The position numbers and the translations under genes are program-made. From contig JAJFKW010000004.1 of NCBI GenBank assembly GCA_021773015.1, forward strand, positions 62,001-126,000: a stretch of DNA of 64,000 nt, in the 5' to 3' direction. Below, piece by piece: positions 48,466 to 64,000 of the stretch. Within the stretch, counting starts at the first letter, position 1. The number at the start of each line of letters is the position of its first letter. The DNA comes from Woeseia sp. (GTDB taxonomy: Bacteria; Pseudomonadota; Gammaproteobacteria; Steroidobacterales; Woeseiaceae). A model generated the notes under the pieces. That model ran no database searches, was not told the origin of the DNA, and saw nothing but the letters and a program-made list of their open reading frames with translations.

Positions 48466-48492
48466 AAAAAGGCCGACCCTTACGGGCCGGCC
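48466..48492 (-). terminator. Strong factor-independent terminator after the OmpA-like gene
   Basis: On the minus strand GGCCGGCCC-GTAA-GGGTCGGCC (nine pairs, one G-T wobble) is followed directly by TTTTT. It lies about 70 bases past the OmpA-like stop and separates that gene from phhB downstream. Confidence 0.88.
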
Positions 48493-48560: not shown

Positions 48561-49286
48561 CTATGGATTGGCCGCGAATGAAGGTGTGTTTTGCACGTAG
48601 AGTGTGAGGCTCACGCGGCGCTCCAACGCAAAACTATCGATGTTTGGGTCCGCAGCTGGCGACTCACCATGGGCTGTTAACTTGATCCTATCAGGGCTTA
48701 CGCCATGCTCGATTAACAGGTCGCGAACGTGCTCGGCTCGCCGTACCGACAGTTGTTGATTGTACTTTGCATTTCCACGTTCATCGGCAAAGCCGTCAAG
48801 CTGCACGTAAATATCTGACGTTGTTGCCAAGCTCGTTGCCAATTGCTGCAACCGCGTATTCGTATCTACAACCAACACATCCTCATCGGTACGAAACAGC
48901 AAATCCATCGCAATACCGGCCTGCATCAGCTCGATTAACTCTGGGTTCGCGACTTGTCGCAACTGCTGCAATTCGACACCCATTTGATCGATGTCTTGAT
49001 TCAGTGATTCAACATTCGTCTGCAGAGCGCTTACACGCTGTTGCGACCCTGACAAATTTGCACTCAGCGCTTTTGCTTCGGCCTTTTTATCACCATACTT
49101 GTCGCCGATTTTTGCGCCAATGGCGGCACCAACGATAAATCCAACTGGACCTCCCGCGACAGCGCCAATAACAGCACCAGTTCCAACTCCGATGTTTTCC
49201 TCTTTGCTAGATTTGTTGCCAGCGGCCATCGCCGGTCCGGCGAACAAGCAAAGTGCACATCCAGCAATCGCGATTTTATTAAACAT
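48561..49286 (-). CDS. OmpA-family protein with glycine-zipper segment (PdsO-like)
   Basis: Envelope protein of 241 residues: signal peptide (about 1-21), a Gly-rich membrane-associating zipper (about 31-58; VGTGAVIGAVAGGPVG), a helical coiled-coil region (about 65-105) and a C-terminal OmpA-like peptidoglycan-binding domain (about 120-235) with LDGFADERGNAKYNQQLSVRRAEHVRD. The layout recalls PdsO, the OmpA-like partner of the proteobacterial dedicated sortase system, but no sortase is in the window. AAGGAGA lies at good spacing before the ATG at 49286. It has its own strong terminator and lies 237 bases downstream of the VWA/kinase cluster on the same strand. Confidence 0.85.
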   Translation of the reverse strand: MFNKIAIAGCALCLFAGPAMAAGNKSSKEENIGVGTGAVIGAVAGGPVGFIVGAAIGAKIGDKYGDKKAEAKALSANLSGSQQRVSALQTNVESLNQDIDQMGVELQQLRQVANPELIELMQAGIAMDLLFRTDEDVLVVDTNTRLQQLATSLATTSDIYVQLDGFADERGNAKYNQQLSVRRAEHVRDLLIEHGVSPDRIKLTAHGESPAADPNIDSFALERRVSLTLYVQNTPSFAANP

Positions 49287-49523: not shown

Positions 49524-50513
49524 CTATCGGTCAGCGTTGGTCAGCGCGACGAATGTACCACCGTTGCGTTCACACAAGATGCGCATCAGGCCAGCAAACT
49601 TGGTGGAGCTGTTAGGAATTTGAGCACCGCCGAAAGAATATGGAAAACCGATCGCATGAATTCTTACCCGTCGATTGCCGTCCTTGTCTTCAACGTTGAC
49701 TCTATCGATCTGACGTACAACGGCTGCGGCAGATGTACCTTGAAATTCATCACCCAATACGTAAATGCTGATCTTTTTCTCTGGTGACCAGAATGTCTCG
49801 ATGGCATATTGAATGCCGTCTGACGGGTCGCTATCGCTAAACGGCGCCCACACGCGCATCTGATTTTTGATCGATTGACGCACCTGCGGCGTATCCTCTA
49901 TCCAAACGCCATTGTGTTGCTGAAACATGTAAGTCCCATTGTCGTTCATGATTTGCAGGCCTTTGACACGAGGATAGACATTGAGAACTTCCGAGAGTTT
50001 TCTCTCTGCCCAACCCCACTTTGCCTGCATACTGCCGGATGTGTCGATTACGAAGATCACGTACTCGCTATCGACTGGAATGCCGCCGACGGCATCGTCA
50101 GGTGCGCGTTCGAATTTAGCCAAACGTTGCATTTCTTCCGTCAGCCGCTGTCTTGCAGCTCGGAGTTTGCCTTCGTCAACATTCAAGATTGGGTCGTCTT
50201 GATTCATCAGGTCGTATTGACCCTGTATTTTGTTCAGTTCTACTTGCAATTGTGCCAACGTTAATTTGGTTTCGGATGTTTCCAATTGAACGGCGGACAA
50301 CATACGGGTCACTACCGTTGTCTGCCCGCGGATGTCGAACAATTCTTCTTGAAGTAACGCAATGAGTTGGTCGAGGTCCTCCTGCGATTTCTCCAGTATC
50401 ACCGGTTCGTAGATTTTGCTGAGAACAAGCAACAATATGATCGCGCCAAAGCCACAACAAATGCAGTCGAGGAACGACAGACTGAACGCTTCGACATTTC
50501 TGCGGCGCTTCAC
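49524..50513 (-). CDS. VWA-domain protein with ExbD/TolR-like membrane segment (B)
   Basis: A 329-residue inner-membrane protein: short basic cytoplasmic N-terminus, one membrane helix (about 10-30) with SFLDCICCGFGAIILL, a coiled coil (about 35-130) and a VWA domain (about 145-325) with an intact MIDAS motif DTSGS. The Asp at the beginning of the helix sits where ExbD/TolR carry their proton-binding Asp. I choose the GTG at 50513, which overlaps the stop of the paralogue upstream by four bases (GTGA) and begins right before the membrane helix; a frame extension to 50570 has no support. Last gene of the cluster. Role inferred: stator-like or metal-dependent adhesion part in the periplasm. Confidence 0.8.
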   Translation of the reverse strand: MKRRRNVEAFSLSFLDCICCGFGAIILLLVLSKIYEPVILEKSQEDLDQLIALLQEELFDIRGQTTVVTRMLSAVQLETSETKLTLAQLQVELNKIQGQYDLMNQDDPILNVDEGKLRAARQRLTEEMQRLAKFERAPDDAVGGIPVDSEYVIFVIDTSGSMQAKWGWAERKLSEVLNVYPRVKGLQIMNDNGTYMFQQHNGVWIEDTPQVRQSIKNQMRVWAPFSDSDPSDGIQYAIETFWSPEKKISIYVLGDEFQGTSAAAVVRQIDRVNVEDKDGNRRVRIHAIGFPYSFGGAQIPNSSTKFAGLMRILCERNGGTFVALTNADR

Positions 50514-51607
50514 GGCCAATCCTTGCTGATGCTCATGAACGACCCGCCAGTACGATACGCCAGCAACCAATAGCCAATGGTTGCATTATAGTCGCCCTCC
50601 ATTGGATACAGCAGCACGTTCACCGGAATTCCGTTGGGTATCTCTTGTATCGCGTCGAAGTGTAATCGCTGCCGCTCGCCACCGGTTACGAACCCGCGGT
50701 CCGTTTCTGGCGCATCCATCGTAGGAAATCCGTCGACTAACAAAATGACGTTGTCGGGCGGTGGGTTCATCTTCTTAATAACGCTATAAGCGCCATGCAT
50801 GTTGGTACCGTTTTCAGGAACGGTACGCCGCAACAGCCGCACCGCTTCATCCAGTTGCTTGCCGTCGCCTACTTCCAGCCAAACACCGTCACTGCCCTTC
50901 AGCACAGCTTTCGGTTCGTTATTGAACGTATAAATCTGGAATTTGCTGTCTTCGGGAAATTGCGCGGAAAGCCAGTCGACGCTTGCGACGGCCTGACGCC
51001 ATTTTAGTGATCGCAATTTATTTGCGTCGGGCATCAAACGACGTCTGATAATGTTGATTATCTTACGATCTAACATGCTCGCGGAGGAGTCAACCAATAC
51101 CAATATTCGTTCGCCACCAACTTTGAGACCAGTCAAGTATTGCCGATCGCCATCGCCAGTAAAAGTTCGTACTTTCGCACCCGCCTCTTTGCTTTGTTGC
51201 TCGAGTGCAAGCAGCCGTTTGCGCCTTTCTTCTAGAGACTCGATGTCGGACTTCAATTTCTCGACTCGTTCAACCTTGGCAAGAGATTCCGAATCGAATT
51301 CTTTTAGCTCTTCTTTTAGCTGTTCGATTAAGGCAATAATCGCGGCAATCTGCTGATCTGCAGAGATCTTCTCGTCTTCCAAGTCTTCCATCGTGTTCTT
51401 GGCAAGAACAAGATTTTTTCGCTGCTGCAGAATCTCAAATTCCAACTTAGTCGTTTCACCCATCAGTTGATCGGGCGGCTTATCCGTTGTTCGCACAACT
51501 TGAGAATTGATGATCATGAAAAACAGAATGACCGCACCAAACCCACAGCTCATGCAGTCGAGAAACGACATGCTGAACACTTCCATGGGCCGTCTTTTTC
51601 TAGCCAC
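50510..51607 (-). CDS. VWA-domain protein with ExbD/TolR-like membrane segment (A)
   Basis: A 365-residue paralogue of the next gene. Basic N-terminus (ARKRRP), membrane helix (about 13-33) with SFLDCMSCGFGAVILFF, a long charged coiled coil (about 45-140) and a VWA domain (about 155-355) with MIDAS DSSAS and a downstream Thr in ENGTNMHGA. The same Ser-Phe-Leu-Asp-Cys entry as in the partner aligns with the ExbD/TolR proton-carrying helix. GTG at 51607 overlaps the end of the FHA gene by eight bases; an ATG eight codons later is possible. The pair presumably forms a heteromer with the TolQ-like protein of the cluster. Confidence 0.8.
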   Translation of the reverse strand: MARKRRPMEVFSMSFLDCMSCGFGAVILFFMIINSQVVRTTDKPPDQLMGETTKLEFEILQQRKNLVLAKNTMEDLEDEKISADQQIAAIIALIEQLKEELKEFDSESLAKVERVEKLKSDIESLEERRKRLLALEQQSKEAGAKVRTFTGDGDRQYLTGLKVGGERILVLVDSSASMLDRKIINIIRRRLMPDANKLRSLKWRQAVASVDWLSAQFPEDSKFQIYTFNNEPKAVLKGSDGVWLEVGDGKQLDEAVRLLRRTVPENGTNMHGAYSVIKKMNPPPDNVILLVDGFPTMDAPETDRGFVTGGERQRLHFDAIQEIPNGIPVNVLLYPMEGDYNATIGYWLLAYRTGGSFMSISKDWP

Positions 51608-52961
51608 CGCTGGTATCCGTTGTTATCAATCGAAACTCGAAGCCTGGAGAGCCGATACGTATGGAATCACCTATATGTAATATCGACGAGCCGTCAATTT
51701 TGTGTCCGTTGAGGAACGTTCCGTATCGACTGTGATCCTCAACAATACATTGGCAGTCTTTCAGCACCACTGAACAGTGCCGGCGGGAAACGCCTGGCAT
51801 TTCGGAGCCAAGCATTACCATTGCTCCACCGCTAACCTCTTCTGACCCGAAAACTAACGGCGAATTCCTTAATTCATATGCGATGTCGCCATATAGCAAA
51901 TGCGTTGGGGAACCGATGCTGGGTTTTTCGACCACCTCAGTGGCCAATTCAATCGCCGCCTGATCCCACGGCAGTTGGCGAATCAAATTGACTGCTCCAC
52001 TTTGAGCCTCAGAGCCCATACATCGTGCAAGCGCCCCGCGCGGCGTAGCGCCAGCCTCTAAACTAAATATCTCGCCGCCGACATGCGACGTCAACATGTC
52101 GGCCAATCCTGGGAGCCGAACCACACGATCTGTCACTTGCACTGCCGGCACGTCGTCGGCACGAAAAAGCGCGCGTAACTTGCTTGATATTTGCTGATAG
52201 ACCGGTGCAACGGCACCGATCAACCTCAAAGATTCAATTTCTGCTTCGTACTTTGAGGCACCATATTCCACTTGCATCTGCACAGAATCGGTCCGCGAGG
52301 CCTCCGCCAGCCACCCTGCCAGATTGTTCAACAGCAATTGTTCTGTTGCGGCCGTATGCAGCGGATCAAACCTTGACTGATCAACGAATGCTTCCGCAAC
52401 CACATTCAGCCAAATATCGAACAGTGCATAGGTACCACATTCAGCGACATTCTCAGTACGTTCAACTTGTGCGCGACCGGGCTGCGACATTCGAACAAGA
52501 TTTGCCGAGTGCAGGCCGATATCGACATGAACAGGAACCGCGCCGCGAAACTGCCGCCGTGTTGCCGCTACCGCACTATCAATCATCGATATAACGTTTA
52601 TGTCCTGCTCGTTCGCGATACCCAACAGCAAGCCAAGTTGCTGGGTCGTCATATGCGATGGCACGACAAAAACCCAATCACGCGACTCCGTTTGAGATTT
52701 CATCTGTTCCAGCTGCCGGCTTGCAAGGTCCGCCGCGGTGAGATGGGAAAATCGACTGTCCTGCAACGCTTCTGTCGATAATTCGGACCAGTAGCGATGT
52801 TGAATGAGACGCGGATTAATCCGTGCTTGCTTAAAAGCCTTACTGCCGGTCGTCAGATTTTCGTCTTCTAGAAGCGCGAATCCCGGCTCGCGATACAAGA
52901 CCCGCGAATTATCTATCAACGTGACGACAGCATCATTTAAGTGAACCGCAACGCTACTCAC
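51600..52961 (-). CDS. Actin/Hsp70-fold ATPase-like protein fused to a C-terminal FHA domain
   Basis: A 453-residue soluble protein. Residues about 1-345 look like an actin/Hsp70 (ASKHA) fold: VHLNDAVVTLIDN as a phosphate-1-like strand, AVPVHVDIGLHSANLVRM as a phosphate-2-like strand, and a C-terminal lobe; the motifs are diverged and ATP binding is not certain. Residues about 360-450 form an FHA domain with VSRRHCSV and DHSRYGTFLNG, expected to bind phosphothreonine. The kinase in the same operon is a likely source of the phosphate. GTG start at 52961; ribosome-binding site weak. Fusion of these two folds is unusual. Confidence 0.7.
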   Translation of the reverse strand: MSSVAVHLNDAVVTLIDNSRVLYREPGFALLEDENLTTGSKAFKQARINPRLIQHRYWSELSTEALQDSRFSHLTAADLASRQLEQMKSQTESRDWVFVVPSHMTTQQLGLLLGIANEQDINVISMIDSAVAATRRQFRGAVPVHVDIGLHSANLVRMSQPGRAQVERTENVAECGTYALFDIWLNVVAEAFVDQSRFDPLHTAATEQLLLNNLAGWLAEASRTDSVQMQVEYGASKYEAEIESLRLIGAVAPVYQQISSKLRALFRADDVPAVQVTDRVVRLPGLADMLTSHVGGEIFSLEAGATPRGALARCMGSEAQSGAVNLIRQLPWDQAAIELATEVVEKPSIGSPTHLLYGDIAYELRNSPLVFGSEEVSGGAMVMLGSEMPGVSRRHCSVVLKDCQCIVEDHSRYGTFLNGHKIDGSSILHIGDSIRIGSPGFEFRLITTDTSGG

Positions 52962-53077
52962 AGTGCACTACCACCATTCGCGACCCGTCAATAGTACAAG
53001 AAGCATTGCTTCCGTTAGATATCAGCCATTCACTGTTCACGATCAATGCGGTCCAGCTGGATATGATGCTCAAGCTT

Positions 53078-53878
53078 TTAGTCCGACTTCATATGTCTAA
53101 TCAATTTGTCGTCCAGGTAATTCTCACTGTCGAAAACAAGACGCTCCTGCAACAATTGAATCTGATACACCAAAAACATTAGAAAGATGCTGATCAGCAG
53201 CGCGATAAATGTTGAGTTGAATGCAACACCAAGGCTCTGGGTTACGCCAGCAATATCTCCCTGTACGGCTTTGTCAGCCTGCGCCAGCGCCTCACCGATG
53301 CCGCGAACGGTGCCAATAAATCCAATGGATGGAATAGCCCACGAAATATAGCGGATCATCGACAATTCAGACTCCAGTCGGTCAGCCTCCGATTCGAAAA
53401 TCGTGTGCGTGCTGCTTGAGACATCCTGGATACTGCGCGTCGTACTAAAGCGGCGTAAAGCGTTCAGCAGCGCACGTGGCAGCACCATGGTGCGCTGCTC
53501 GTCAGGAAGTGCCTGGACCTGTCGTGAAAACTCTCGAGTATCTTCGGGAAGTATCCGCATACCCTCAGCAATTTGCACCAGGTCAACATCCAACAACTTG
53601 CGCTCACTTAAAATTGTCGCTGACTTGTAGCCCATTATTGCCAATGCCCAAAACATCAGAATAAAACAGGCCTCTTGTTCGAAGTCCTTGATAAGAACCC
53701 AGGTCGAGCGTTCGCGAATAAAATCCGAATTCTCCTTCGCCCGCTCATTTTGTTCTACGATCACTTCAGCGGCATTTGGCCGGACAACAGAAACGTATAC
53801 AGCGTGCACCAAAATTACCGAAATAATCAGCGCAAATAGCTGATACACGAACTCGACTGGTATATTTTTTCTTTTCAT
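53078..53878 (-). CDS. MotA/TolQ/ExbB-like channel protein
   Basis: A 266-residue inner-membrane protein with about four hydrophobic segments (12-32, 70-88, 180-205, 218-242). The pair SWAIPSIGFIGTVRGIGEAL and VAFNSTFIALLISIFLMFLVYQ matches the conserved last two helices of the MotA/TolQ/ExbB family. The N-terminal part with two extra helices and a periplasmic loop differs from ExbB. In this operon the ExbD/TolR role would be taken by the two VWA proteins. ATG at 53878. This is the second, unrelated-looking motor channel in the window. Confidence 0.85.
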   Translation of the reverse strand: MKRKNIPVEFVYQLFALIISVILVHAVYVSVVRPNAAEVIVEQNERAKENSDFIRERSTWVLIKDFEQEACFILMFWALAIMGYKSATILSERKLLDVDLVQIAEGMRILPEDTREFSRQVQALPDEQRTMVLPRALLNALRRFSTTRSIQDVSSSTHTIFESEADRLESELSMIRYISWAIPSIGFIGTVRGIGEALAQADKAVQGDIAGVTQSLGVAFNSTFIALLISIFLMFLVYQIQLLQERLVFDSENYLDDKLIRHMKSD

Positions 53879-53940
53879 GTATTTGACATCAACTCAGGAT
53901 AATTCGCTAAAACGCGGAAATTACGCTCGCAAGATCGCGC

Positions 53941-54192
53941 TCAAATATTGGTCGGAAAAGCGATTGACTCATCAACCGAAATTTCCTCGGTTGGCGTGAA
54001 GTCATCTTCATTTTCCTCGTAGGTTTGCTCATCCAGATCCGCATCTTCGGCGTCATTCACTTCCTCCTCATCACCAGCAGCATCTTCCGCGGCGACTATG
54101 TTCTCCTCAGAAGTTGACCCGTCATTGTCCTGCGCTATTACAGCAAATGGCGCGGCTACCAGAAACAACAATACTATCAGTAGTCTATGCAT
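53941..54192 (-). CDS. Small acidic secreted protein
   Basis: An 83-residue protein with a signal peptide (about 1-20, AVIAQ) and a mature part dominated by Asp/Glu, likely disordered. No family recognised. Its place inside the cluster, between the FHA/PEGA/FGE gene and the TolQ-like gene, suggests a periplasmic accessory; an acidic peptide may bind Ca or the basic parts of partners, which is only inference. Confidence 0.6.
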   Translation of the reverse strand: MHRLLIVLLFLVAAPFAVIAQDNDGSTSEENIVAAEDAAGDEEEVNDAEDADLDEQTYEENEDDFTPTEEISVDESIAFPTNI

Positions 54193-54309
54193 CTCGATTC
54201 TCGATGTGTCGGTATTTATTGGACCTACAAACTAGCGAAAGGTCCCAGTAATTGTGCAGTGAATAGTTCAGATTGAACCTTGCTTGCGAAAGCAGCACAA
54301 ATTGCCCCG

Positions 54310-56736
54310 CTAATTGGCGTTCTTCGCGACTCGAAAACCGAGATCCACTCTTCCACCCGTGCCAAAGTCGCGATACGACAGGCGCAGTTCCGTCACCCCA
54401 GCGTGTCGCCAACTGGAGCCCCTGATCACCTTGTTGGAACCACGATTGGGGCCCATTGGATCGACAGTCGGCTCCTGTTGTCCCGGATTTGGCACAGAGT
54501 AGTTATCCTGCACCCATTCAGCAACGTTTCCGCCGCCATCGTGTATCCCTAACACGTTCGCGGGAAAGGTACCGACCGGTGCGCTTGACGCGTAACCGTC
54601 ATTAAAATTGGGCAGAATCGACGGTACCAGTGCGATTGCCGACTTATCGGCGTAGTTGCCGCTGTCTCGGCGCGGCGGAAGATTCTTGCCCCATGGAAAG
54701 TTTTGCGGCTGCGTGCGTCCCTGGTAACGAATGGCCCAAGACCATTCGGCCTCTGTCGGTAAGCGATAACCATTTGGCGTTGGTGTCACGGGCTGCCATT
54801 TTTCAAACTTTTTCTCATATGCCAGTGTCAAACCTTCCTGGGTACTCAGCCAATTGCAATATTCGACAGCTTCGACCCAACTAACGTTGACGACTGGATT
54901 TAGATCACCGGCCAAAGCCGCATGAACATTTTGTCCCGATATGTGATTCTTGCGGAATTTGAGAAAATCCCGATTGGACACTTCGTTCGCACCGATATAA
55001 AAAGCCTTCGTTAGTGTCACCGGCACCAGCACTTCGTTTGCCCGCCGACCTTGCCCACTCCGTGACGAACCCATGACGAACCCACCTGGCTCGACACGCC
55101 TCAATGTCTGGCCGCCTGCGCTGATTATCGAAGCGGAAGAACTCCTCGCCGCTACTTCAGCATCGGACAACAAACGGACTTGTATGGTTTGCGGATATCC
55201 TGGCCGCGGCGTAACACTCCTACTAAATGTTTGATAACCCGTGCGCTTAACTTCCAGTGTATGCGGCGCGGAAGAGAGGTTTAGATCTATCGAGCCAGAG
55301 CCACGTGCACTACCGTCGATATAGACCGTCGCATTCTTCGGCGTTGTCACTATTGATACTTTGCCAACGCGAGCACTTAAATCTACCGTAATCGCCTGCG
55401 ATGCAGCCGCGCGTAACCGCACTTGGCGCACCGTAGATCCGTACCCGGCCTTTGACAAGCCAATCTGGTAATCGATATCCGGCGACAATGCCAAGTTGAT
55501 CGGCGATTGCCCACGGTAGCGACCATTCACAGTGACGTTCGCGCCGCGCGGTACTGAGTTCACCTGCAGTTGTGCATTTGCCGGTTCCAGTTTGATTAAC
55601 GGAAGCAGCTGATGCTCGTTTGGCATGGTCTCGATACTGCCATCCCACGCCTTGAAGCCATCGGCGACGACACTAATTGGGTGGCTACCTTCCAGCAATT
55701 CCAAACGCAACGGTGTTTTGCCGACCGACGATTGACCTTGATAGACCGTCGCACCACTTGGCTCAGAAGTAATATCAATGTTCGCCCATTGGGGTACTAA
55801 TTGAATGTGGTAATCCACTTGTCGGCCGAGCCCCTCAACATTGAGACGATCGGCGAAGGGCAAATACCTTGGAGCCGAGACTGAAATGGAATGCGTGCCT
55901 GGCTCAACTTCAATCGGCCCATACGGAGCCTGTCCAACCTTGGCTTCGTCAACCGTCACCACCGCATCGACAACTGGGTCGGTACTAATCGTTAAACTTC
56001 CAGGAAGTTTCCGCATACTGATTAAAACCGTTCGGCTCGGCGTTTCGTCGACGACCAACGTTTGACTAACATCGTAGTAGCCAGCTTTCTTTACGTGTAC
56101 CGTATAGTTGCCCTCGCGCATCAACGTTCTGTCACCCAATGGCAACTTAAACCAGCCACCGGAGATCGAAAATTCGTCCGCGCCAACAGGCTGCACATCA
56201 AATTGCAACGAGCGAGCAGAAAATAACATCCACGATGCGATGGCCAACACCGCTAATCCTGCGCCAACGAGCGCTTTCCAATGATGTGCTTTTTCAGTTG
56301 CTTCTGCGGCGCGCGCTTCCGCAGCACGTTTGAATGCCATGGGCGCGATCGCTTCATTTGCAGCGATTCCATCGCCAGCGGCGGCATCAGGGGGCTTAGT
56401 AATGTACGCGCTTTGCTCTAGCTGAACCTGCAAGAGTAACGCGCTGTCTTGGGCCGAAACAACGACGCGGGTACCGTAAAATTCGATCGCATCGCCGACA
56501 GCCAACCTCTTAGATGCTGCCAGTGGCACCCCATTGACTGACATCGTGCCCGCGCGATCAACTGGCTGAATAAATGGTTCCCCATCCAGATCGTCGAGCA
56601 AGGCAACCGGGGCATTTCCGGGACCTGGCAGGCGGATATCGCAATCAATACCCGTACCGATTTTTAATGGTAAACGATCGCGCGGATACTGCTTTTCTCC
56701 GCTGTTGTCCCTTACAACTATGGACTGCAAATTCAA
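54310..56736 (-). CDS. FHA-like/TM/PEGA-repeat/FGE-fold protein
   Basis: An 808-residue membrane protein. An N-terminal FHA-like domain (about 1-100; IGTGIDCDIRLPG, VNGVPLAASKRLAVGDAIEF) is cytoplasmic; a helix (about 154-173) crosses the membrane; about four PEGA-type beta repeats (about 180-535) with PSGATVYQGQ and VPRGANVTVNGRYRG lie outside; a C-terminal FGE-sulfatase fold (about 545-806) has YRLPTEAEWSWA, GNVAEWV and VIRGSSW. The two catalytic Cys of formylglycine-generating enzyme are absent, so this is probably a binding version of the fold, as in TagR-like proteins. Overlaps the kinase gene by four bases (ATGA). Confidence 0.82.
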   Translation of the reverse strand: MNLQSIVVRDNSGEKQYPRDRLPLKIGTGIDCDIRLPGPGNAPVALLDDLDGEPFIQPVDRAGTMSVNGVPLAASKRLAVGDAIEFYGTRVVVSAQDSALLLQVQLEQSAYITKPPDAAAGDGIAANEAIAPMAFKRAAEARAAEATEKAHHWKALVGAGLAVLAIASWMLFSARSLQFDVQPVGADEFSISGGWFKLPLGDRTLMREGNYTVHVKKAGYYDVSQTLVVDETPSRTVLISMRKLPGSLTISTDPVVDAVVTVDEAKVGQAPYGPIEVEPGTHSISVSAPRYLPFADRLNVEGLGRQVDYHIQLVPQWANIDITSEPSGATVYQGQSSVGKTPLRLELLEGSHPISVVADGFKAWDGSIETMPNEHQLLPLIKLEPANAQLQVNSVPRGANVTVNGRYRGQSPINLALSPDIDYQIGLSKAGYGSTVRQVRLRAAASQAITVDLSARVGKVSIVTTPKNATVYIDGSARGSGSIDLNLSSAPHTLEVKRTGYQTFSRSVTPRPGYPQTIQVRLLSDAEVAARSSSASIISAGGQTLRRVEPGGFVMGSSRSGQGRRANEVLVPVTLTKAFYIGANEVSNRDFLKFRKNHISGQNVHAALAGDLNPVVNVSWVEAVEYCNWLSTQEGLTLAYEKKFEKWQPVTPTPNGYRLPTEAEWSWAIRYQGRTQPQNFPWGKNLPPRRDSGNYADKSAIALVPSILPNFNDGYASSAPVGTFPANVLGIHDGGGNVAEWVQDNYSVPNPGQQEPTVDPMGPNRGSNKVIRGSSWRHAGVTELRLSYRDFGTGGRVDLGFRVAKNAN

Positions 56737-59144
56737 ATCGCTTCCTCACACTGAACGACTATGGGACGCATTTCTATCTCGGGCGCCACTCTAAATTCTA
56801 TTCTGACATCTCGGTAGCCGGCCCGGCTTCCCACCGCGACATAAACGCCTGGTCGCAAACTCAGTTGGCGATTCTCGAACGAACCCAGTCTCGCCACCTT
56901 GAAAATATCCACGTTTGTGAGCGAGTCGGACACCAACAAAACGTCCAGCGGCGTCGCCGCGCGCTTCAATAATCGCGAAAGTGTATTTTTCTGGTTCTCC
57001 AGCCGCGGTCCGATTGGCGAAATGCGAGACATATCCAATAGCATGGTTGTTGCGCGCTGCATTTTACCAGGCGCGCTGAGCGAATCGGGATCATCGATAT
57101 AGGCATTCAACTGGTTATGCAAATTCGTCCTTTGACGGGCGTTCGCGAGTCCCGCCTGGGCGAATTGCAAGTCACCATCTATCTCGAGGATTTTCTCATA
57201 AGTGTTGATCGCAGACTCCCACTCTTCGTTATGCTCCAAATTCACTGCCTCTTTCTCGAACGACCGTATTTTCTCCAGTCGGATTTCCTGATCGACTTGT
57301 AATAGACCATCAGTGGGTTGACGGGAATTCGCGTCGAGTTTCTTCGCCGCCTCAAACGCTGCGCGCGCCGACAGAAAATCGCGTGCGGCCAGCGCATCGA
57401 GTCCTTCCGTCATACGCCGCTCGAACGAAAATTGCCGAACCAAGCCGCGCACGCGATCAAGTGCATCCTTTGCGGGTTGCCAGGCTCCGTCCAATGAGAC
57501 CGCTTGTTCTAACGCAATCTTGGCTGCTTCGTATTCTAGGTCATTTTCGAATTGCTGAGCTTGTTCAATTAGGTCAAGTACGGATTTTAGATTGAGCGCG
57601 CGCGCAAGGCCGGCTTCCGCCGGCACGTTGCCGGGCGTAATGGCAACCGCCAAATCGTAGAATTTGACCGCATCAATATGATCGGCACTGTCGAAAGCCG
57701 TTTTCGCCTGGTCCATTGCAGCATTGAATTCAGATTCGATCCGGTCAAAAAATGGGTCCAGTAGTTGTATAGCTTGTTGGTACCTACTCAGCGCTGAGCG
57801 GTGATCCTTTAGCAAGTAAGCACGATCTCCTTCTGCATACACATCTAATGCATCCAAATACGTTTGCCCGCCCCAGCGATCTATCGCGCGAAATTTGAGT
57901 CGTTCCAACCTCGACAATAGATCACCCAGCGCCTCGTCAGTCGCCGCTTTCAATTGCGCCGCGGAATCACCGGAAAATTGGCCGAGATTTTCGCTGAATC
58001 CTACCGGACCTTGATCATCGTCTGCCGCCTCCTGCGTATTCAATTGAAATCCCGGTTCGCTAGTATCGTCAGATGCAACCGCAGCCGAGTCAGACTCCTG
58101 CGCTGACACGGGATCGGGCTGGTCCGCTACTTCCTTTTGGATTTCGGGCTGCTGCTGATCAGTCACAGTGGCGGGCAGCACGAATAGGACGGCTAAAAGC
58201 ACAAGCAGCAGTAGCGCAAGGCCACCGTAAAGTGCACTCGCCGGGACGCCTTTCGATGTGGCCGGCGTCGAAGCGGCAGGCGCAACTTTCGCCGGACGAC
58301 GTTGCGGTCTGACAATTTCATTACCGTCGCGACGAATTTGCCGGTCAACTTTCACGGTACTGGAGACCTCGGCAGGGGCGGGCCCCGCCGGAAATCCCAT
58401 TTGCGTTAAACGAGAAGCAATTTCTTCAGCAGACGGTCGATTCACATCGCGTTCACTGAGCATTTCCGCTAACAAGCCATTTAATTGGCTGGGCAACGCG
58501 GCACCGCTGGCATCACGGAGCGTATCTAACTGCGCAATCGTCCTGACTGGCGATCCACCGATCAATTCGCAAATAAGCACGCCAAGCGAATATACGTCGT
58601 CCGCTGGCGCCGCAGGTAAAGCCGCAAGTTGCTGGGGGCTGGCCGAAATATCGGATCCGCCACCAATTTGCTCGCCTACAGCAGAGGCGACGCCAAAATC
58701 TAGCAAATACGGTACGCCGCGCGCGTCCAACGCAACGTTGCTTGCCTTGATGTCGCGGTGCACGATACTTTTGCCGTGTGCATATCGCAACGCGTCAGCG
58801 AGCAAACCGATAGGGCGCAGCAGCACTTCAATCGGTTGCGTGCTCAACACGCTAATGTTTGGCCCGTCGATATATTGCATGGCGTAAAATACGCCATCTG
58901 GCAAATCGTGAAACTCGAATACTCGAATTATGTTGGCATGCATTAGTCGACTGTTAATGCGCCACTCTGATTGCAGTTGATCGGGTCGTGCGCCACCGCC
59001 CGGAACGTCGGCGAACTTCAACGCTACCTTAGATTGCGCACGTTTATCGGTAGCCAACCAAACAATGGCATTTCCCACAGGGCCAACCGGTTTGATAAGG
59101 GTATACCTACCGGCAAGCAGCACACCTTCTGTCAGCTCGCGCAT
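56733..59144 (-). CDS. Membrane-anchored Ser/Thr protein kinase with TPR-like extracytoplasmic region
   Basis: An 803-residue protein. The N-terminal Hanks-type kinase domain (about 13-250) has the ATP Lys K43 (VALKF), Glu E60, HRDIKASN (129-136, catalytic D131) and DFG (149-151), so catalytic residues are intact; the glycine-rich loop is degenerate (VGPVGNAIVW). A Pro/Ala-rich linker leads to a membrane helix (304-324), an acidic linker and a helical, TPR-like region (about 400-700), then a small beta-rich C-terminal domain ending with PIVVQCEE. The inferred role is to phosphorylate cluster partners, read by the FHA domains. Start ATG at 59144. Confidence 0.88.
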   Translation of the reverse strand: MRELTEGVLLAGRYTLIKPVGPVGNAIVWLATDKRAQSKVALKFADVPGGGARPDQLQSEWRINSRLMHANIIRVFEFHDLPDGVFYAMQYIDGPNISVLSTQPIEVLLRPIGLLADALRYAHGKSIVHRDIKASNVALDARGVPYLLDFGVASAVGEQIGGGSDISASPQQLAALPAAPADDVYSLGVLICELIGGSPVRTIAQLDTLRDASGAALPSQLNGLLAEMLSERDVNRPSAEEIASRLTQMGFPAGPAPAEVSSTVKVDRQIRRDGNEIVRPQRRPAKVAPAASTPATSKGVPASALYGGLALLLLVLLAVLFVLPATVTDQQQPEIQKEVADQPDPVSAQESDSAAVASDDTSEPGFQLNTQEAADDDQGPVGFSENLGQFSGDSAAQLKAATDEALGDLLSRLERLKFRAIDRWGGQTYLDALDVYAEGDRAYLLKDHRSALSRYQQAIQLLDPFFDRIESEFNAAMDQAKTAFDSADHIDAVKFYDLAVAITPGNVPAEAGLARALNLKSVLDLIEQAQQFENDLEYEAAKIALEQAVSLDGAWQPAKDALDRVRGLVRQFSFERRMTEGLDALAARDFLSARAAFEAAKKLDANSRQPTDGLLQVDQEIRLEKIRSFEKEAVNLEHNEEWESAINTYEKILEIDGDLQFAQAGLANARQRTNLHNQLNAYIDDPDSLSAPGKMQRATTMLLDMSRISPIGPRLENQKNTLSRLLKRAATPLDVLLVSDSLTNVDIFKVARLGSFENRQLSLRPGVYVAVGSRAGYRDVRIEFRVAPEIEMRPIVVQCEEAI

Positions 59145-59160
59145 CGTATGATTTAGGGGG

Positions 59161-60393
59161 CTAGCCGGTTGGTTCCGTCGACCGGGCTGGTGCGCTCAGA
59201 TCCACGTCTTCAGTAAATCCCGTCTCCACCTGGTAGATTTCGTGAAGTAGCTTCCGCCAACTCTCATATTGAGCCTCGGCAGTGCCTGTCAAACGCCTCG
59301 ACTGTCCTTCAACCTGAATGACAAGTGGCGCAGCTTCGGCAACAAACGATTCCGACAACTCTTTTATATCCTCTCGATGTGCTCGAGTGGAGCGGCGAAG
59401 CCGATAGGCATCGATAATTGTTCTAACACCACGGTTAACACCCACAGCGCGGGCCGCGTTGCGTATACGAGGGTTGGAACCGCCGGTATTGATTTGCACT
59501 GATCCCGCCAACACTGCAGCACCCAATAGAGCGCGCATTGTTGCCGCGCGTTTCGTCTGTCGGATAGCGATTGACTGCTCACGCGCTCTCTTACGCCAGC
59601 CTTCATAAGGCAGCGCGATACCGTAGTAAAAATTGGCGTAGTGCTCATTCAATGTATCGATCACCAATCTATCTCTTTCACGGATCTGGCGTAAACGCCC
59701 AACCATCGGATCATTCTGTGCCGGTAATCGCAGAATGGTTGTATTGCCTTTTTCGTTTGTGGAAATATGATCGCCGAATGCGGTTGGTGCCATGTCCGCA
59801 AAAAACTTGAGTTCTGACGATTGCCGGATCCGGGTAATTTGCTGAGGGTCGAGCTGTGACGCATAGGCGCGTAGATCGTTCGCAATGTCGTTGAAAACTT
59901 TTTGATATGGATCGTTTCGTCGATCACGATATTCTGCGAATGACGTAAGTCCGGTTTGCATTGAGTAGCTATTTTCGTACCAGCGACTGCCCAGCGAATC
60001 TACCGCCCAAACTTTTAATGTGACGTACTCCCCGTCCGATTGGACAATCGACCCATTGAGAACAACATCTGTAAACACGTATTCGTTTGGAATGACGCGA
60101 ACAGCACCCCAATACCCTGTGCCTTGCAATGTCGTCTTGATGTGATAGGGCAAATAGCGCGCTTCTGCCATGCGAACTTCAGGATAAATACCGCTCTTGT
60201 CCGCATTGTTCTTTGCTGGTACGCCCGCATCGAAATTCATAATCCCCACATCGAGCAACAAGTTCTCTGAGATATCCAGCGATGCGACATCAAGTGTCGT
60301 CGACTCCGCCGTAATGACTTCCGAAACCGTACAACCCGTGGCACCCATCGCAATCAGGATAAAACCAAAAATTACATTGCCTGTTTTCTTCAT
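59161..60393 (-). CDS. Lipoprotein with CsgG/LpoB-like N-terminal part, unknown function
   Basis: A 410-residue lipoprotein; lipobox ATGC at about residue 21 when the ATG at 60393 is used (GGAG upstream). The N-terminal part (about 40-165) contains TGYWGAVRVIP and VLNGSIVQSDGEYVTLKVWAVD, a pattern resembling the CsgG/LpoB-type lipoprotein fold; this is a tentative reading. The rest (about 200-390) is basic and helical with a hydrophobic stretch near 290-302. It sits between the kinase and the Gly-rich lipoprotein genes, and is likely anchored in the outer membrane as part of the same complex. Confidence 0.7.
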   Translation of the reverse strand: MKKTGNVIFGFILIAMGATGCTVSEVITAESTTLDVASLDISENLLLDVGIMNFDAGVPAKNNADKSGIYPEVRMAEARYLPYHIKTTLQGTGYWGAVRVIPNEYVFTDVVLNGSIVQSDGEYVTLKVWAVDSLGSRWYENSYSMQTGLTSFAEYRDRRNDPYQKVFNDIANDLRAYASQLDPQQITRIRQSSELKFFADMAPTAFGDHISTNEKGNTTILRLPAQNDPMVGRLRQIRERDRLVIDTLNEHYANFYYGIALPYEGWRKRAREQSIAIRQTKRAATMRALLGAAVLAGSVQINTGGSNPRIRNAARAVGVNRGVRTIIDAYRLRRSTRAHREDIKELSESFVAEAAPLVIQVEGQSRRLTGTAEAQYESWRKLLHEIYQVETGFTEDVDLSAPARSTEPTG

Positions 60394-60471
60394 GAGATAG
60401 CGGCGTTCTCCATTTTCACTGTCTTGTATTGCGTTGCACCGTCGGCACCTGCTGCGATTACCCTGCAAGCG

Positions 60472-61539
60472 CTATAACTGATTGTATTTTCTATATTCTT
60501 CCCAGAGACGTTCGCGCAAATCCGGATCATCTTCACTCAGCGCCGCCTCCTTCAGCTGCTTAGCGACGATATCTTCGCTGACCAAATCCGGAATGTCGTC
60601 CGGCGTACGGTCTTTAATAACGTCCTCTGACAGGCCATCCATCGACGGCGTAGCTCGCGACTCGTCTTGCGGCGTTGTGTTCGCAGCCTCTCCAGTACCC
60701 TGCACGCCACCCTGAGACCCTAGTCCTACGCCACCACCGCCTGACCCGCCGCCTTCGCCGCCAAATCCTTCGGTGTTGCGGCCAACCGTGGATATTTCAC
60801 GTTGTTCGTCTGCCAGTACTCCGTCGAAATCACCAACCGACTTCTCAAGCGTACCTTCTAAACGGGCCTGTCGCTCGGCATCGGTTTCACCAGGAAATTG
60901 TCCCACACCGCCGGAACAGCCACCGTCCGCGCTGCCGCTGTCGCCGATGCCACCGATGCCTCCGGGATTGCCGCTACTACCGCCACAATTACCTTGGGTT
61001 GCACCGTTGCTGCCGCCTGATCCGCCGCCCGCACCACCACCGCCCACACCAGGCACCGCGCCGCCAAGGCCAGGAACTCCGCCACCGCCTGATGCGCCAC
61101 CCGATGCACCTCCAGATGCACCTCCAGATGCGCCACCTGATGCGCCACCTGATGCACCGCCTGGCATACCGCCAGAAGAACCACCCGACGAACCGCCCGA
61201 CGAACCGCCACCCGACATGCCGCCAGGCATACCGCCAGACGAGCCGCCCGATGAACCACCACCCGACATGCCGCCTGGCATTCCACCAGAAGAACCGCCA
61301 GACGAACCACCGGGCATACCACCGGATGAGCCGCCAGAAGAGCCGCCTGATGAGCCGCCGCCGGGAATGCTGACGCCGCCGCCGCCAGGCAACGATGTTC
61401 CAACACCACCACCTAAGCCGCCGGTACCAATGCCAATTGAACAACCTGCTGTCATTGCGGTGATCGATAGCGCCGCGATGCTAATTGCTGTCTTGCGCGT
61501 GAACTCAAACTGAAGCAAATTGCTGCCTGGATAATTCAT
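60472..61539 (-). CDS. Glycine/serine-rich repeat lipoprotein, first gene of the cluster
   Basis: A 355-residue lipoprotein (lipobox TAGC, Cys33) with a Gly/Ser/Met/Ala-rich tandem-repeat region (about 60-151; units such as SSGG, MPGG, ASGG), two more Gly-rich parts (about 152-215 and 265-290) and a non-repetitive charged C-terminus (about 295-355) that ends RERLWEEYRKYNQL. I recall similar C-terminal ends on conserved hypothetical proteins of other gammaproteobacteria. The long antisense frames over this region are artefacts of its skewed composition. It is the most upstream gene of the minus-strand cluster and probably a flexible surface or periplasmic component. Confidence 0.78.
   Translation of the reverse strand: MNYPGSNLLQFEFTRKTAISIAALSITAMTAGCSIGIGTGGLGGGVGTSLPGGGGVSIPGGGSSGGSSGGSSGGMPGGSSGGSSGGMPGGMSGGGSSGGSSGGMPGGMSGGGSSGGSSGGSSGGMPGGASGGASGGASGGASGGASGGASGGGGVPGLGGAVPGVGGGGAGGGSGGSNGATQGNCGGSSGNPGGIGGIGDSGSADGGCSGGVGQFPGETDAERQARLEGTLEKSVGDFDGVLADEQREISTVGRNTEGFGGEGGGSGGGGVGLGSQGGVQGTGEAANTTPQDESRATPSMDGLSEDVIKDRTPDDIPDLVSEDIVAKQLKEAALSEDDPDLRERLWEEYRKYNQL
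61087..61362 (-). repeat. Degenerate tandem repeats encoding Gly-rich units
   Basis: Codons for residues 60-151 of the Gly-rich lipoprotein form 12-15 base repeats (e.g. encoding SSGG, ASGG and MPGG). Such tracts can change copy number by slippage, which would alter length of the Gly-rich arm. Confidence 0.8.
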
Positions 61540-61928: not shown

Positions 61929-61962
61929 AAAAAAAACTCCCGAACACCGAGGTGTCCGGGAG
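61929..61962 (-). terminator. Factor-independent terminator after the Spy-like gene
   Basis: On the minus strand CTCCCGGACACC and GGTGTTCGGGAG form a long hairpin with one mismatch and a tight loop, followed by eight T. It lies about 80 bases past the Spy-like stop and isolates that gene from the cluster downstream. Confidence 0.88.
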
Positions 61963-62044
61963 CAACAAGCTGCCTTTCGGCGGGAGAATTGTGCTGATCT
62001 ACAGCCGGGCATCGATTTCCAAATCGCCGCGTATTCAGTGTCGG

Positions 62045-62563
62045 CTAAGATTCCTGGTCGTCGCCACTATCGTCACCATGGCGGCGTCGACGATCTTTGA
62101 ATTTCTGCCGCATTTGCGCTTTGGCCTCATCCAATTGTTGAATTTGCTCCGGCGTCAACTTCGCATGAATGTCGTTGCGTATTTGGCTTCTCAGCAACGT
62201 CATCTCGGTTGCTAATTCGCCCCTTTCAGCCGCCAGCGCCTGTATCGTTTGTTCGTAGTCGGGCGCATCCGTGTCGATCTCTTTGAGTGCCGTCCTGTTG
62301 GCGCGACCGCGCTCTCGAAGCGAATCCATCTGTGGCTTTGCGGCCAGCACGACATTGTGCAATTCCTGAGTCTGCGTCTCATCCAAACCCAAATGCTCAC
62401 TCATTCGTTCCACCATCCGCTCTGGATTCCGCATATGTGCCATTTGGCGATGATGGTCGCCGGGCTTACCGTGATGTCGCCCGCGATCTCCTTCGCCAGC
62501 ATTGGCAAATGTGCCGATTGCAAGTAGCGCTGCTGCCAACGCAATTGACCGTTTGATATTCAT
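62045..62563 (-). CDS. Spy/CpxP-like periplasmic chaperone
   Basis: A 172-residue exported protein: signal peptide (about 1-22, FANAG), a His-rich segment (about 28-45), and an alpha-helical Spy/CpxP-type region with two LTXXQ-like motifs, a diverged LGLDETQTQEL (about 58-68) and LTPEQIQQLDEA (about 136-147). The tail is Arg/Asp-rich. Expected to bind unfolded envelope proteins and, as CpxP, to restrain the sensor kinase. Divergent from cpxR-like and cpxA-like genes, the usual arrangement. GGAG eight bases before the ATG. One GTAAA half-site of the CpxR box occurs upstream (plus-strand 62621-62625); a second half-site is not clear. Confidence 0.88.
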   Translation of the reverse strand: MNIKRSIALAAALLAIGTFANAGEGDRGRHHGKPGDHHRQMAHMRNPERMVERMSEHLGLDETQTQELHNVVLAAKPQMDSLRERGRANRTALKEIDTDAPDYEQTIQALAAERGELATEMTLLRSQIRNDIHAKLTPEQIQQLDEAKAQMRQKFKDRRRRHGDDSGDDQES

Positions 62564-62743
62564 ATTCGTAGCTCCGTGTCAGTCTTCATAACAGTGGCGA
62601 TTAGTCTATCTGTCGAAGTGTTTACAAACGCAAACATTGCCGCAACATTCGCCAAGATTTGTCAAGTCGCTACGCAGTAGCGTTGAACCTGACCACAGAA
62701 TGACACACGATGGACGACGAGCTATCCAGGATAATCAGTCACC

Positions 62744-63454
62744 GTGAACGGCAGAACGAAAAACGCTTCAATACTACTCATCGATGATGATCGAGAACTC
62801 GGCGGTATGCTACGCGATTTCTTACTCGCCGATCGGCTCGATTTGACGATCGCAATGGACGGGGAAACCGGTCTCGAAAGATTGTCAGACGATGTATTCG
62901 ATCTCGCCATTCTCGACATCATGTTACCGGGGATGGGCGGACTGGATGTATTAAAGGAACTTCGCAAGATCAGCGACATGCCGGTCATCATGTTGACCGC
63001 CCGAGGTGACGACATTGATCGCATCATCGGCTTGGAATTTGGTGCTGATGACTATCTAAGCAAGCCGTTTAATCCACGGGAATTGCTCGCCCGAATTCGT
63101 GCAATTCTTCGCAGAACGCAAATCGCCGCCCAACAAGCCGAGCTATCGATTGGTTCGATCTCGATTGACCTTGGAAGTCGCACGGCGCTGGTAAACGAAA
63201 ATGCACTCACGTTGACCGGAACGGAATTCGAAATTTTACGCTGTCTCGTCGCAACACCTGGGCAGGTAGTGAGCAAGGAACACCTTAGCGAAGTTGCACT
63301 GGGCAGAAGACTCTTGCCCTACGATCGCAGCATCGATACTCACATCAGTAATTTACGCAGCAAACTGGAAAAGGCCGGAAATCAAAGTGCAACCATCCAG
63401 AATCAGCGTGGCGTCGGCTATTTGCTCATTCCGGTTCGGCCAAAAACACCGTAA
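62744..63454 (+). CDS. CpxR-type response regulator (OmpR family)
   Basis: A 236-residue DNA-binding response regulator. Receiver domain (about 9-122) with acidic pocket IDDD, phospho-acceptor D58 (LAILDIMLPG) and K107 in YLSKPFNP; C-terminal winged helix (about 135-232) with LTGTEFEILRCLV and the recognition part DRSIDTHISNLRSKLE. The ALGRRLLPYDRSIDTHISNLR segment is typical of CpxR. Start GTG at 62744. The adjacent Spy-like and kinase genes support an envelope-stress role. Ends 20 bases before the kinase gene. Confidence 0.92.
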   Translation: MNGRTKNASILLIDDDRELGGMLRDFLLADRLDLTIAMDGETGLERLSDDVFDLAILDIMLPGMGGLDVLKELRKISDMPVIMLTARGDDIDRIIGLEFGADDYLSKPFNPRELLARIRAILRRTQIAAQQAELSIGSISIDLGSRTALVNENALTLTGTEFEILRCLVATPGQVVSKEHLSEVALGRRLLPYDRSIDTHISNLRSKLEKAGNQSATIQNQRGVGYLLIPVRPKTP

Positions 63455-63474
63455 GTCATTTGCGATGGGCAAAC

Positions 63475-64000
63475 ATGAATAACTTTCTCGTTCGCATATT
63501 TATTTCATTTTGGATGATTATTGGTATCACCGTGGGCGTCGCGGCGCTTGGCGGCTATTGGTACGCCGAACGTCTACGTAACGCATACGATGAATTCGAG
63601 ATTGGTGACGAGCTTCTGAATGCCAGCGCCGCACTCGAATCTGCCGGTCGCGACGGACTCAAGGTTTGGCTACAAAATTATCCGAAAACAGTTGGCGCCG
63701 AATTGATGGTACTGGATCAACACCGCCGCGACTTGTTGGGCAGACCGCTACCGATGACATTGCGGCGCATGGTGGAGCGCCATCGTCGAATTGTTCGGCC
63801 TGGCGAACGGCGATTTCGCGATCCAGCAAATCTCCGTCGTGCCAGACCACTGACGCAACTACTCGGACCGGACGGCGAGCGTTACACATTCGTACTCGTC
63901 CCCACGCGGACCGGCTCCGTTTTCGGTCGCGGCGCGCCGCCGGGTAGATTCGCGCTTGTCCTCGCGCTGGTTATCAGCGCCGCAATATCGTTAATGCTCG
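63475..64000 (+). CDS. CpxA-type sensor histidine kinase, N-terminal part (cut by window edge)
   Basis: From the ATG at 63475 the frame is open to the right edge (175 codons). A first membrane helix (about 6-29; FISFWMIIGITVGVAALGG), a periplasmic sensor domain (about 30-155) rich in Arg, and the beginning of the second helix (FALVLALVISAAISLML) are visible. RPLTQLLGPDGERYTFVLV is a CpxA-like feature. HAMP, His and ATPase parts lie outside the window. With cpxR-like and spy-like genes it forms an envelope-stress two-component module. Confidence 0.88.
   Translation, partial: MNNFLVRIFISFWMIIGITVGVAALGGYWYAERLRNAYDEFEIGDELLNASAALESAGRDGLKVWLQNYPKTVGAELMVLDQHRRDLLGRPLPMTLRRMVERHRRIVRPGERRFRDPANLRRARPLTQLLGPDGERYTFVLVPTRTGSVFGRGAPPGRFALVLALVISAAISLML

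Follow-up and report, generated by a model that had tools for sequence, protein, structure and literature searches.

A conserved nine-gene unit with a probable TolQ-vWA-type motor in Woeseia sp. and its relatives: evidence for a candidate trans-envelope machine

What do nine neighboring genes on one strand of a Woeseia sp. genome do together? They lie at positions 49524-61539 of the 64,000-nucleotide stretch of DNA that we analyzed (the window: positions 62,001 to 126,000 of contig JAJFKW010000004.1, assembly GCA_021773015.1), and an original prediction had read them as an undescribed, proton-driven envelope complex regulated by threonine phosphorylation. We confirmed the nine open reading frames (ORFs), all on the minus strand and in the order g1-g2-g3-g4-g5-g6-g7-g8-g9 (TM, transmembrane):

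60472-61539, minus strand: g1, Gly/Ser-rich lipoprotein of 355 amino acids, lipobox MTAGC as read from the sequence
59161-60393, minus strand: g2, outer-membrane-type lipoprotein of no known family; likely start ATG 60393, the ORF extending to TTG 60468
56733-59144, minus strand: g3, Ser/Thr kinase (PF00069, 7e-22), TM helix 309-327 and periplasmic TPR-like region
54310-56736, minus strand: g4, degenerate FHA-like N-terminus, TM helix 155-173, four PEGA domains (PF08308, 9e-50) and FGE fold (PF03781, 1e-36)
53941-54192, minus strand: g5, small acidic secreted protein of 83 amino acids, poorly conserved
53078-53878, minus strand: g6, MotA/TolQ/ExbB-type channel with about four hydrophobic helices (PF01618, 5e-14)
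51600-52961, minus strand: g7, Hsp70/actin-fold domain (about residues 1-345) and C-terminal FHA (PF00498, 4e-11)
50510-51607, minus strand: g8, TM helix, coiled coil and vWA domain with DxSxS (MIDAS), a weak vWA match
49524-50513, minus strand: g9, second vWA protein of g8-like architecture, a weak vWA match

Three gene pairs overlap, as had been described: g3 and g4 share 4 bp, g7 and g8 share 8 bp, and g8 and g9 share 4 bp when g9 is read from GTG 50513, its probable start, and not from the ORF finder's TTG 50570. Domain matches were likewise found for the kinase, PEGA/FGE, channel, FHA and vWA identities that the original prediction had assigned from the sequence alone.

We used g2 as the marker for co-occurrence because it belongs to no known family. 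It was present in 11 of 185 genomes sampled from the class, the window's own among them, and the g9 profile matched at below 1e-100 in 10 of the same 185, all of them within the 11. The eleventh g2 genome carried g4-g5-g6-g8 on a separate short contig, and a genome beyond the 11 had the same four genes on a 4.6-kb contig that ended short of the place expected for g2. In the ten other g2 genomes the neighbors lay in order up to the contig ends, except in one locus (L034), where g6 followed g9. A scan with the g9 alignment, taking one genome per species, yielded at least 533 confirmed relatives, and the best 80 of these, many of them contigs of metagenome-assembled genomes (MAGs) cut at their ends, were read with their flanks for the locus comparisons below. 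The 80 came from Woeseiaceae, other Gammaproteobacteria, Desulfobacterota, Acidobacteriota, Myxococcales and one Phycisphaerales MAG. Fifty-two of the 53 loci that held all of g2, g3, g4, g6, g8 and g9 were collinear on one strand, the exception again being L034; in a Myxococcales locus the set was broken in two, each half on a different strand. Among the 60 genomes nearest to that of the window, drawn from its family and order, 51 carried g2 (38 of the 43 of good quality), including genomes of 1.3-1.8 Mb. No g9 copy was found on plasmids. The nine genes are one conserved travelling unit, which is core and almost universal within the family and order of the window, not an island. Its core parts are two secreted proteins (lipoproteins in the window), a TPR membrane protein, a PEGA/FGE membrane protein, the channel and the two vWA proteins. 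Co-occurrence had been set beforehand as a point on which the original prediction could fail, and the neighborhood comparison came out strongly in its favor.

The channel and the vWA proteins have the features of a motor. A MotA/TolQ/ExbB channel gene is adjacent to vWA genes, and a domain search found neither ExbD nor TolR among the nine genes. About 40 positions of g6 were at least 97% identical across 76 sequences, among them the pore-motif residues T190 (WAIPSIGFIGTVRGIG) and T223 (FNST); the g6 profile had no sequence match in the PDB. Both g8 and g9 have a single TM helix starting SFLD...CGFGA, followed by a coiled coil and a vWA domain with an intact DxSxS metal-site signature. The proton-path aspartate was conserved in at least 97% of sequences in each protein, as Asp17 of g8 (SFLDxMSCGFGA; 81 sequences) and as TM Asp35 of g9 (numbered on the ORF 49524-50570; 88 sequences). 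ExbBD, TolQR, MotAB and GldLM are proton-driven motors in which a channel pentamer surrounds two axle helices with proton-binding aspartates. The window's trio shares with these 5:2 motors the MotA_ExbB domain, the conserved Thr and a single TM axle helix with an essential Asp. It differs in its axle, which consists of two unlike proteins that end in a coiled coil and vWA domain, not in peptidoglycan-binding, ExbD/TolR or GldM domains, and g6 has an extra N-terminal TM helix compared with ExbB/TolQ.

A 2025 study modeled a trio of this kind with AF3, a pentamer of TolQ-like subunits around two different vWA proteins; it proposed force transmission to the outer membrane and reported no function (PMC12204202). 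The second vWA family of that study, from an Idiomarina search, resembles ours: its TolQ-like gene comes with no TolR/ExbD, its two vWA proteins differ from each other and have an Asp-bearing pore helix, and it occurs in Proteobacteria; we infer that the window's trio belongs to it, equating the two by features rather than by direct sequence comparison. The section on the trio deals with the motor only, and the lipoproteins, the TPR/kinase, PEGA-FGE and Hsp70-FHA proteins and the kinase/PP2C pair described below have no place in it. Thus the motor part is not undescribed, and the claim that the complex is proton-driven is supported by the TM aspartates of both vWA proteins, the Thr residues of the channel and the published trio model. 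A sister module in another gammaproteobacterium (L146:7122-11750, G090:C1) combines a MotA-like channel, a vWA protein with the TM motif SALDLFASAMGA, an FHA-like protein, a PP2C and a trypsin-FHA protein, without g1-g4; it is another vWA motor tied to phospho-signalling.

The remaining constant parts are envelope proteins. Conservation of g1 in relatives was confined to the C-terminal part, and a lipobox pattern occurred in 9 of 21 longer g1 proteins. The label lipoprotein, which the original prediction had applied to this gene, can be relied on, as judged from sequence, for the g1 of the window alone, since several relatives have no lipobox. No Pfam, NCBIfam or PDB sequence match was found for g2. 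Its AF2 model (pLDDT 87) combines a long helical hairpin with a small alpha/beta domain that weakly resembles TolB-N/LptE, and Cys22 (numbered on the first row of the alignment) is nearly invariant. The FGE fold of g4 probably serves as a binding module, because the catalytic cysteine pair is missing; Cys627 alone is conserved in 68 sequences. Relatives of this domain with solved structures include FGE and PorK/GldK.

The phosphorylation layer behaves differently from this core. The window's g3 kinase keeps the catalytic K43, HRD and DFG. Both g3 and g4 were complete at 61 loci. Of these, 38 had a kinase domain within g3 or beside it, 38 had the N-terminal FHA-like domain of g4 and 43 had a recognizable g7 FHA; all three domains were present in 31 loci and none in 12. 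The kinase domain was absent from 23 of the 61 loci, and five further kinases had lost catalytic residues. An unrooted tree of g6, g8 and g9 contained deep branches without the phospho layer and a four-locus group without g7. These three domains, the kinase and both of FHA type, are optional parts, not defining ones. The actin fold that had been proposed for g7 was borne out by an AF2 model (pLDDT 90) that matched Hsp70 nucleotide-binding domains in Foldseek (E about 1e-17), with degenerate nucleotide/phosphate motifs.

The window's own family has a further pair of signaling genes, which in the window's genome lie just past the window end, on the same strand as g1:

64834-65664 (window coordinates): PP2C phosphatase
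65686-66972 (window coordinates): upstream Ser/Thr kinase

All 15 loci examined at the family level had a second kinase and a PP2C 5' of g1, encoded on its strand; neither of the two loci examined at the order level had them. In 8 of the 15 the pair was directly 5' of g1. In the other 7, the window's among them, a Cpx-like cassette of response regulator and sensor came between, in most cases together with a Spy-like gene. In the window's genome the pair is about 3-5 kb from g1. This upstream PP2C and second kinase support a putative phospho-switch in the window's family. Regulation by phosphorylation, which had been predicted for the complex as such, therefore does not hold as a defining property, since 23 of 61 loci have no kinase domain; in the window's family it has more support than the original prediction had at hand.

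We propose that the unit encodes one trans-envelope, proton-driven force machine with a housekeeping role at the outer membrane or peptidoglycan and a phospho-switch in some lineages, and give this reading a probability of about 0.62. A g6 pentamer would form a proton channel, inside which the TM helices of g8 and g9 would pair up as the axle, as in the 5:2 motors. Proton flow past the conserved Asp residues would move the axle, and the coiled coils would transmit this movement to the vWA heads in the periplasm. The heads may then act on an inner-membrane-anchored scaffold (the TPR region of g3 and the PEGA/FGE region of g4), on the secreted or lipoprotein g1 and g2 and, in the window's family, on an OmpA-domain protein. 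The work would most likely be housekeeping, such as moving, assembling or tethering surface components, alongside Tol-Pal. That it concerns the outer membrane or peptidoglycan is suggested by the constant parts outside the motor, which are periplasmic proteins or lipoproteins. In lineages having them, the g3 kinase, the upstream kinase/PP2C pair and the FHA of the Hsp70-fold g7 would act as a cytoplasmic switch on the motor. A bolder version, which we hold only tentatively and think less probable than not, is that the unit makes a distinct class of widespread, near-essential trans-envelope machine. Its rotary proton motor, with vWA heads, would build or move some component of the outer membrane or cell surface that Tol, Ton, T6SS and T9SS (the type VI and type IX secretion systems) do not serve, and in some lineages kinase, phosphatase and FHA/Hsp70 proteins would switch it.

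Several points weigh against the proposed machine. Raw counts pointed strongly to joint evolution of the kinase and FHA domains (Fisher p 9e-7), but only 3-4 independent changes lay behind them, and we rejected the idea after a tree-corrected test in which the co-variation was not significant. Phospho-reading may be weak or absent, because the FHA-like domain at the N-terminus of g4 has no conserved phosphopeptide-binding residues and the arginine is usually missing from the g7 FHA. The best solved structures for g2 in Foldseek, TolB (E 4e-3) and LptE, were both weak matches. Complex formation is here suggested by genes and domains rather than by a modeled complex, the genes themselves give no hint of which outer-membrane component would be moved, and the literature searched held no experimental study of the system. 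Nor did we find a paper on the whole gene set in that literature, where PMC12204202 alone dealt with the motor trio; few subscription papers were covered, so that an older description is possible. As a whole, the original prediction is partly supported.

The motor could instead drive surface-protein export or movement in a T9SS/gliding-like machine, with the FGE-fold protein in a role like that of the GldK/PorK ring. PorKLMN/GldKLMN likewise combines a proton motor, an FGE-fold partner and an outer-membrane lipoprotein; GldLM is a proton motor acting on the GldK/GldN ring (PMC8986121), and GldK/PorK is the best NCBIfam match of the g4 FGE domain (1.2e-23). That match, however, reached 84.1 bits against an equivalog cut-off of 350. 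Moreover, g4 carries PEGA repeats and is anchored in the inner membrane, unlike the lipoproteins GldK and PorK, no translocon gene was seen near the window's unit, and no outer-membrane translocon or recurring substrate gene was linked to the loci (SprA/Sov was not searched for in the genome). We consider this explanation unlikely, and a second one, that the unit is a signalling relay, more unlikely still. In such a relay the lipoprotein and FGE fold would sense envelope damage and signal to the kinase and FHA, the channel being merely part of the sensor. The threonine phosphorylation pathway of T6SS (PpkA, PppA, Fha and TagQRST; PMC10482370) has the same kinds of part: membrane Ser/Thr kinase, PP2C, FHA, FGE fold and lipoprotein, the PP2C of our genome lying outside the window. 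Our unit is built round a proton motor, though, and the motor and vWA proteins are retained where kinase and FHA are lost, so the kinase layer is dispensable. There is no ABC transporter domain (TagS/TagT) among the nine genes, and control of T6SS is unlikely because no TssK (TssK/VasE), the marker of a linked apparatus, was found in the genome. The likeness to this pathway, to which the original prediction had pointed, stands as an analogy only.

Least probable is a Zorya-like defence in which proton-motor proteins sense phage damage to the envelope and trigger an effector. Weak ZorA matches of g6 (E 3.5e-4 in PADLOC; 13.8 of 500 bits in NCBIfam) speak for it, while the system is core and near-universal in family and order instead of patchy, and no nuclease or helicase effector occurs among the nine genes. 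A PADLOC search for a defence system gave only generic kinase matches, coiled-coil noise and the weak ZorA match, and we rejected this candidate. Tol-Pal shares with the window a TolQ-type motor, an outer-membrane lipoprotein and, in the window's family, an OmpA-domain neighbor, whereas the unit has no TolR, TolA or TolB orthologue. A separate Tol-Pal is present in the same genome (TolB, 481 bits, at C1:75875, beside MotA_ExbB at C1:74059; the window's locus is on C4), so the proposed machine would not be its replacement.

The transcription unit may extend beyond g9, as three features at its borders suggest:

48561-49286, minus strand: OmpA-domain gene, secreted, with glycine zipper and OmpA domain of peptidoglycan-binding type (PF00691, 3.6e-15)
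61936-61963, minus strand: terminator-like hairpin 5' of g1, 12-bp stem and T-run (consensus match only)
48471-48492, minus strand: terminator-like hairpin 3' of the OmpA-domain gene, 9-bp stem with 8 GC (consensus match only)

The OmpA-domain gene is directly 3' of g9 on the same strand, with a homologue in 23 loci, and is probably a tenth gene of the unit in the Woeseiaceae. The two flanking hairpins (61963-61936 and 48492-48471), both strong, in a window whose total of such consensus matches is at chance level, suggest that the unit probably takes in this gene. Outside the window's family, family-less lipoprotein-like genes were seen 3' of g9 (L031:827-1783, 13 loci; L083:4120-4833, 6 loci) and are possible alternatives to it. 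On the other side, the hairpin at 61936-61963 stands between g1 and a gene for an LTXXQ/Spy-like periplasmic protein, which adjoins the divergent, Cpx-like genes of a response regulator and a sensor kinase; together they occupy 62045-64000. About half of the family loci have this cassette between the PP2C/kinase pair and g1. In two loci the gene directly 5' of g1 encoded TPR and a weak C-terminal TonB match (L153:14651-15946 and L154:15974-17251; E 0.003-0.007, below the cut-off).

Other loci departed from the common pattern. In several relatives, second, orphan g2-like genes lay far from motor genes, with no operon gene found alongside (L203:10676-11752, L204:9975-11087, L205:8924-10339 and L206:9004-10164). 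The Phycisphaerales (L077) and Acidobacteria (L095) MAG loci fell among proteobacterial loci in the tree, reflecting either horizontal transfer or a binning error. In a Deltaproteobacterium MAG (L063:422-3430), a g3-like ORF opens with an iron-containing alcohol dehydrogenase domain in the kinase's place and is either a fusion or an artefact.

What is new here is the set of envelope proteins constantly encoded with the motor, the division into core and optional parts and the family-specific kinase/phosphatase pair. A recently modeled TolQ-vWA motor without a reported function thereby gains a full and testable parts list, including the proteins that it should pull on. The unit's carriers are hundreds of mostly uncultured bacteria, the best matches being marine and sediment organisms of the Woeseiaceae, other Gammaproteobacteria and Desulfobacterota. 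For one family, the kinase/phosphatase pair shows how a TolQ-vWA motor may be switched.

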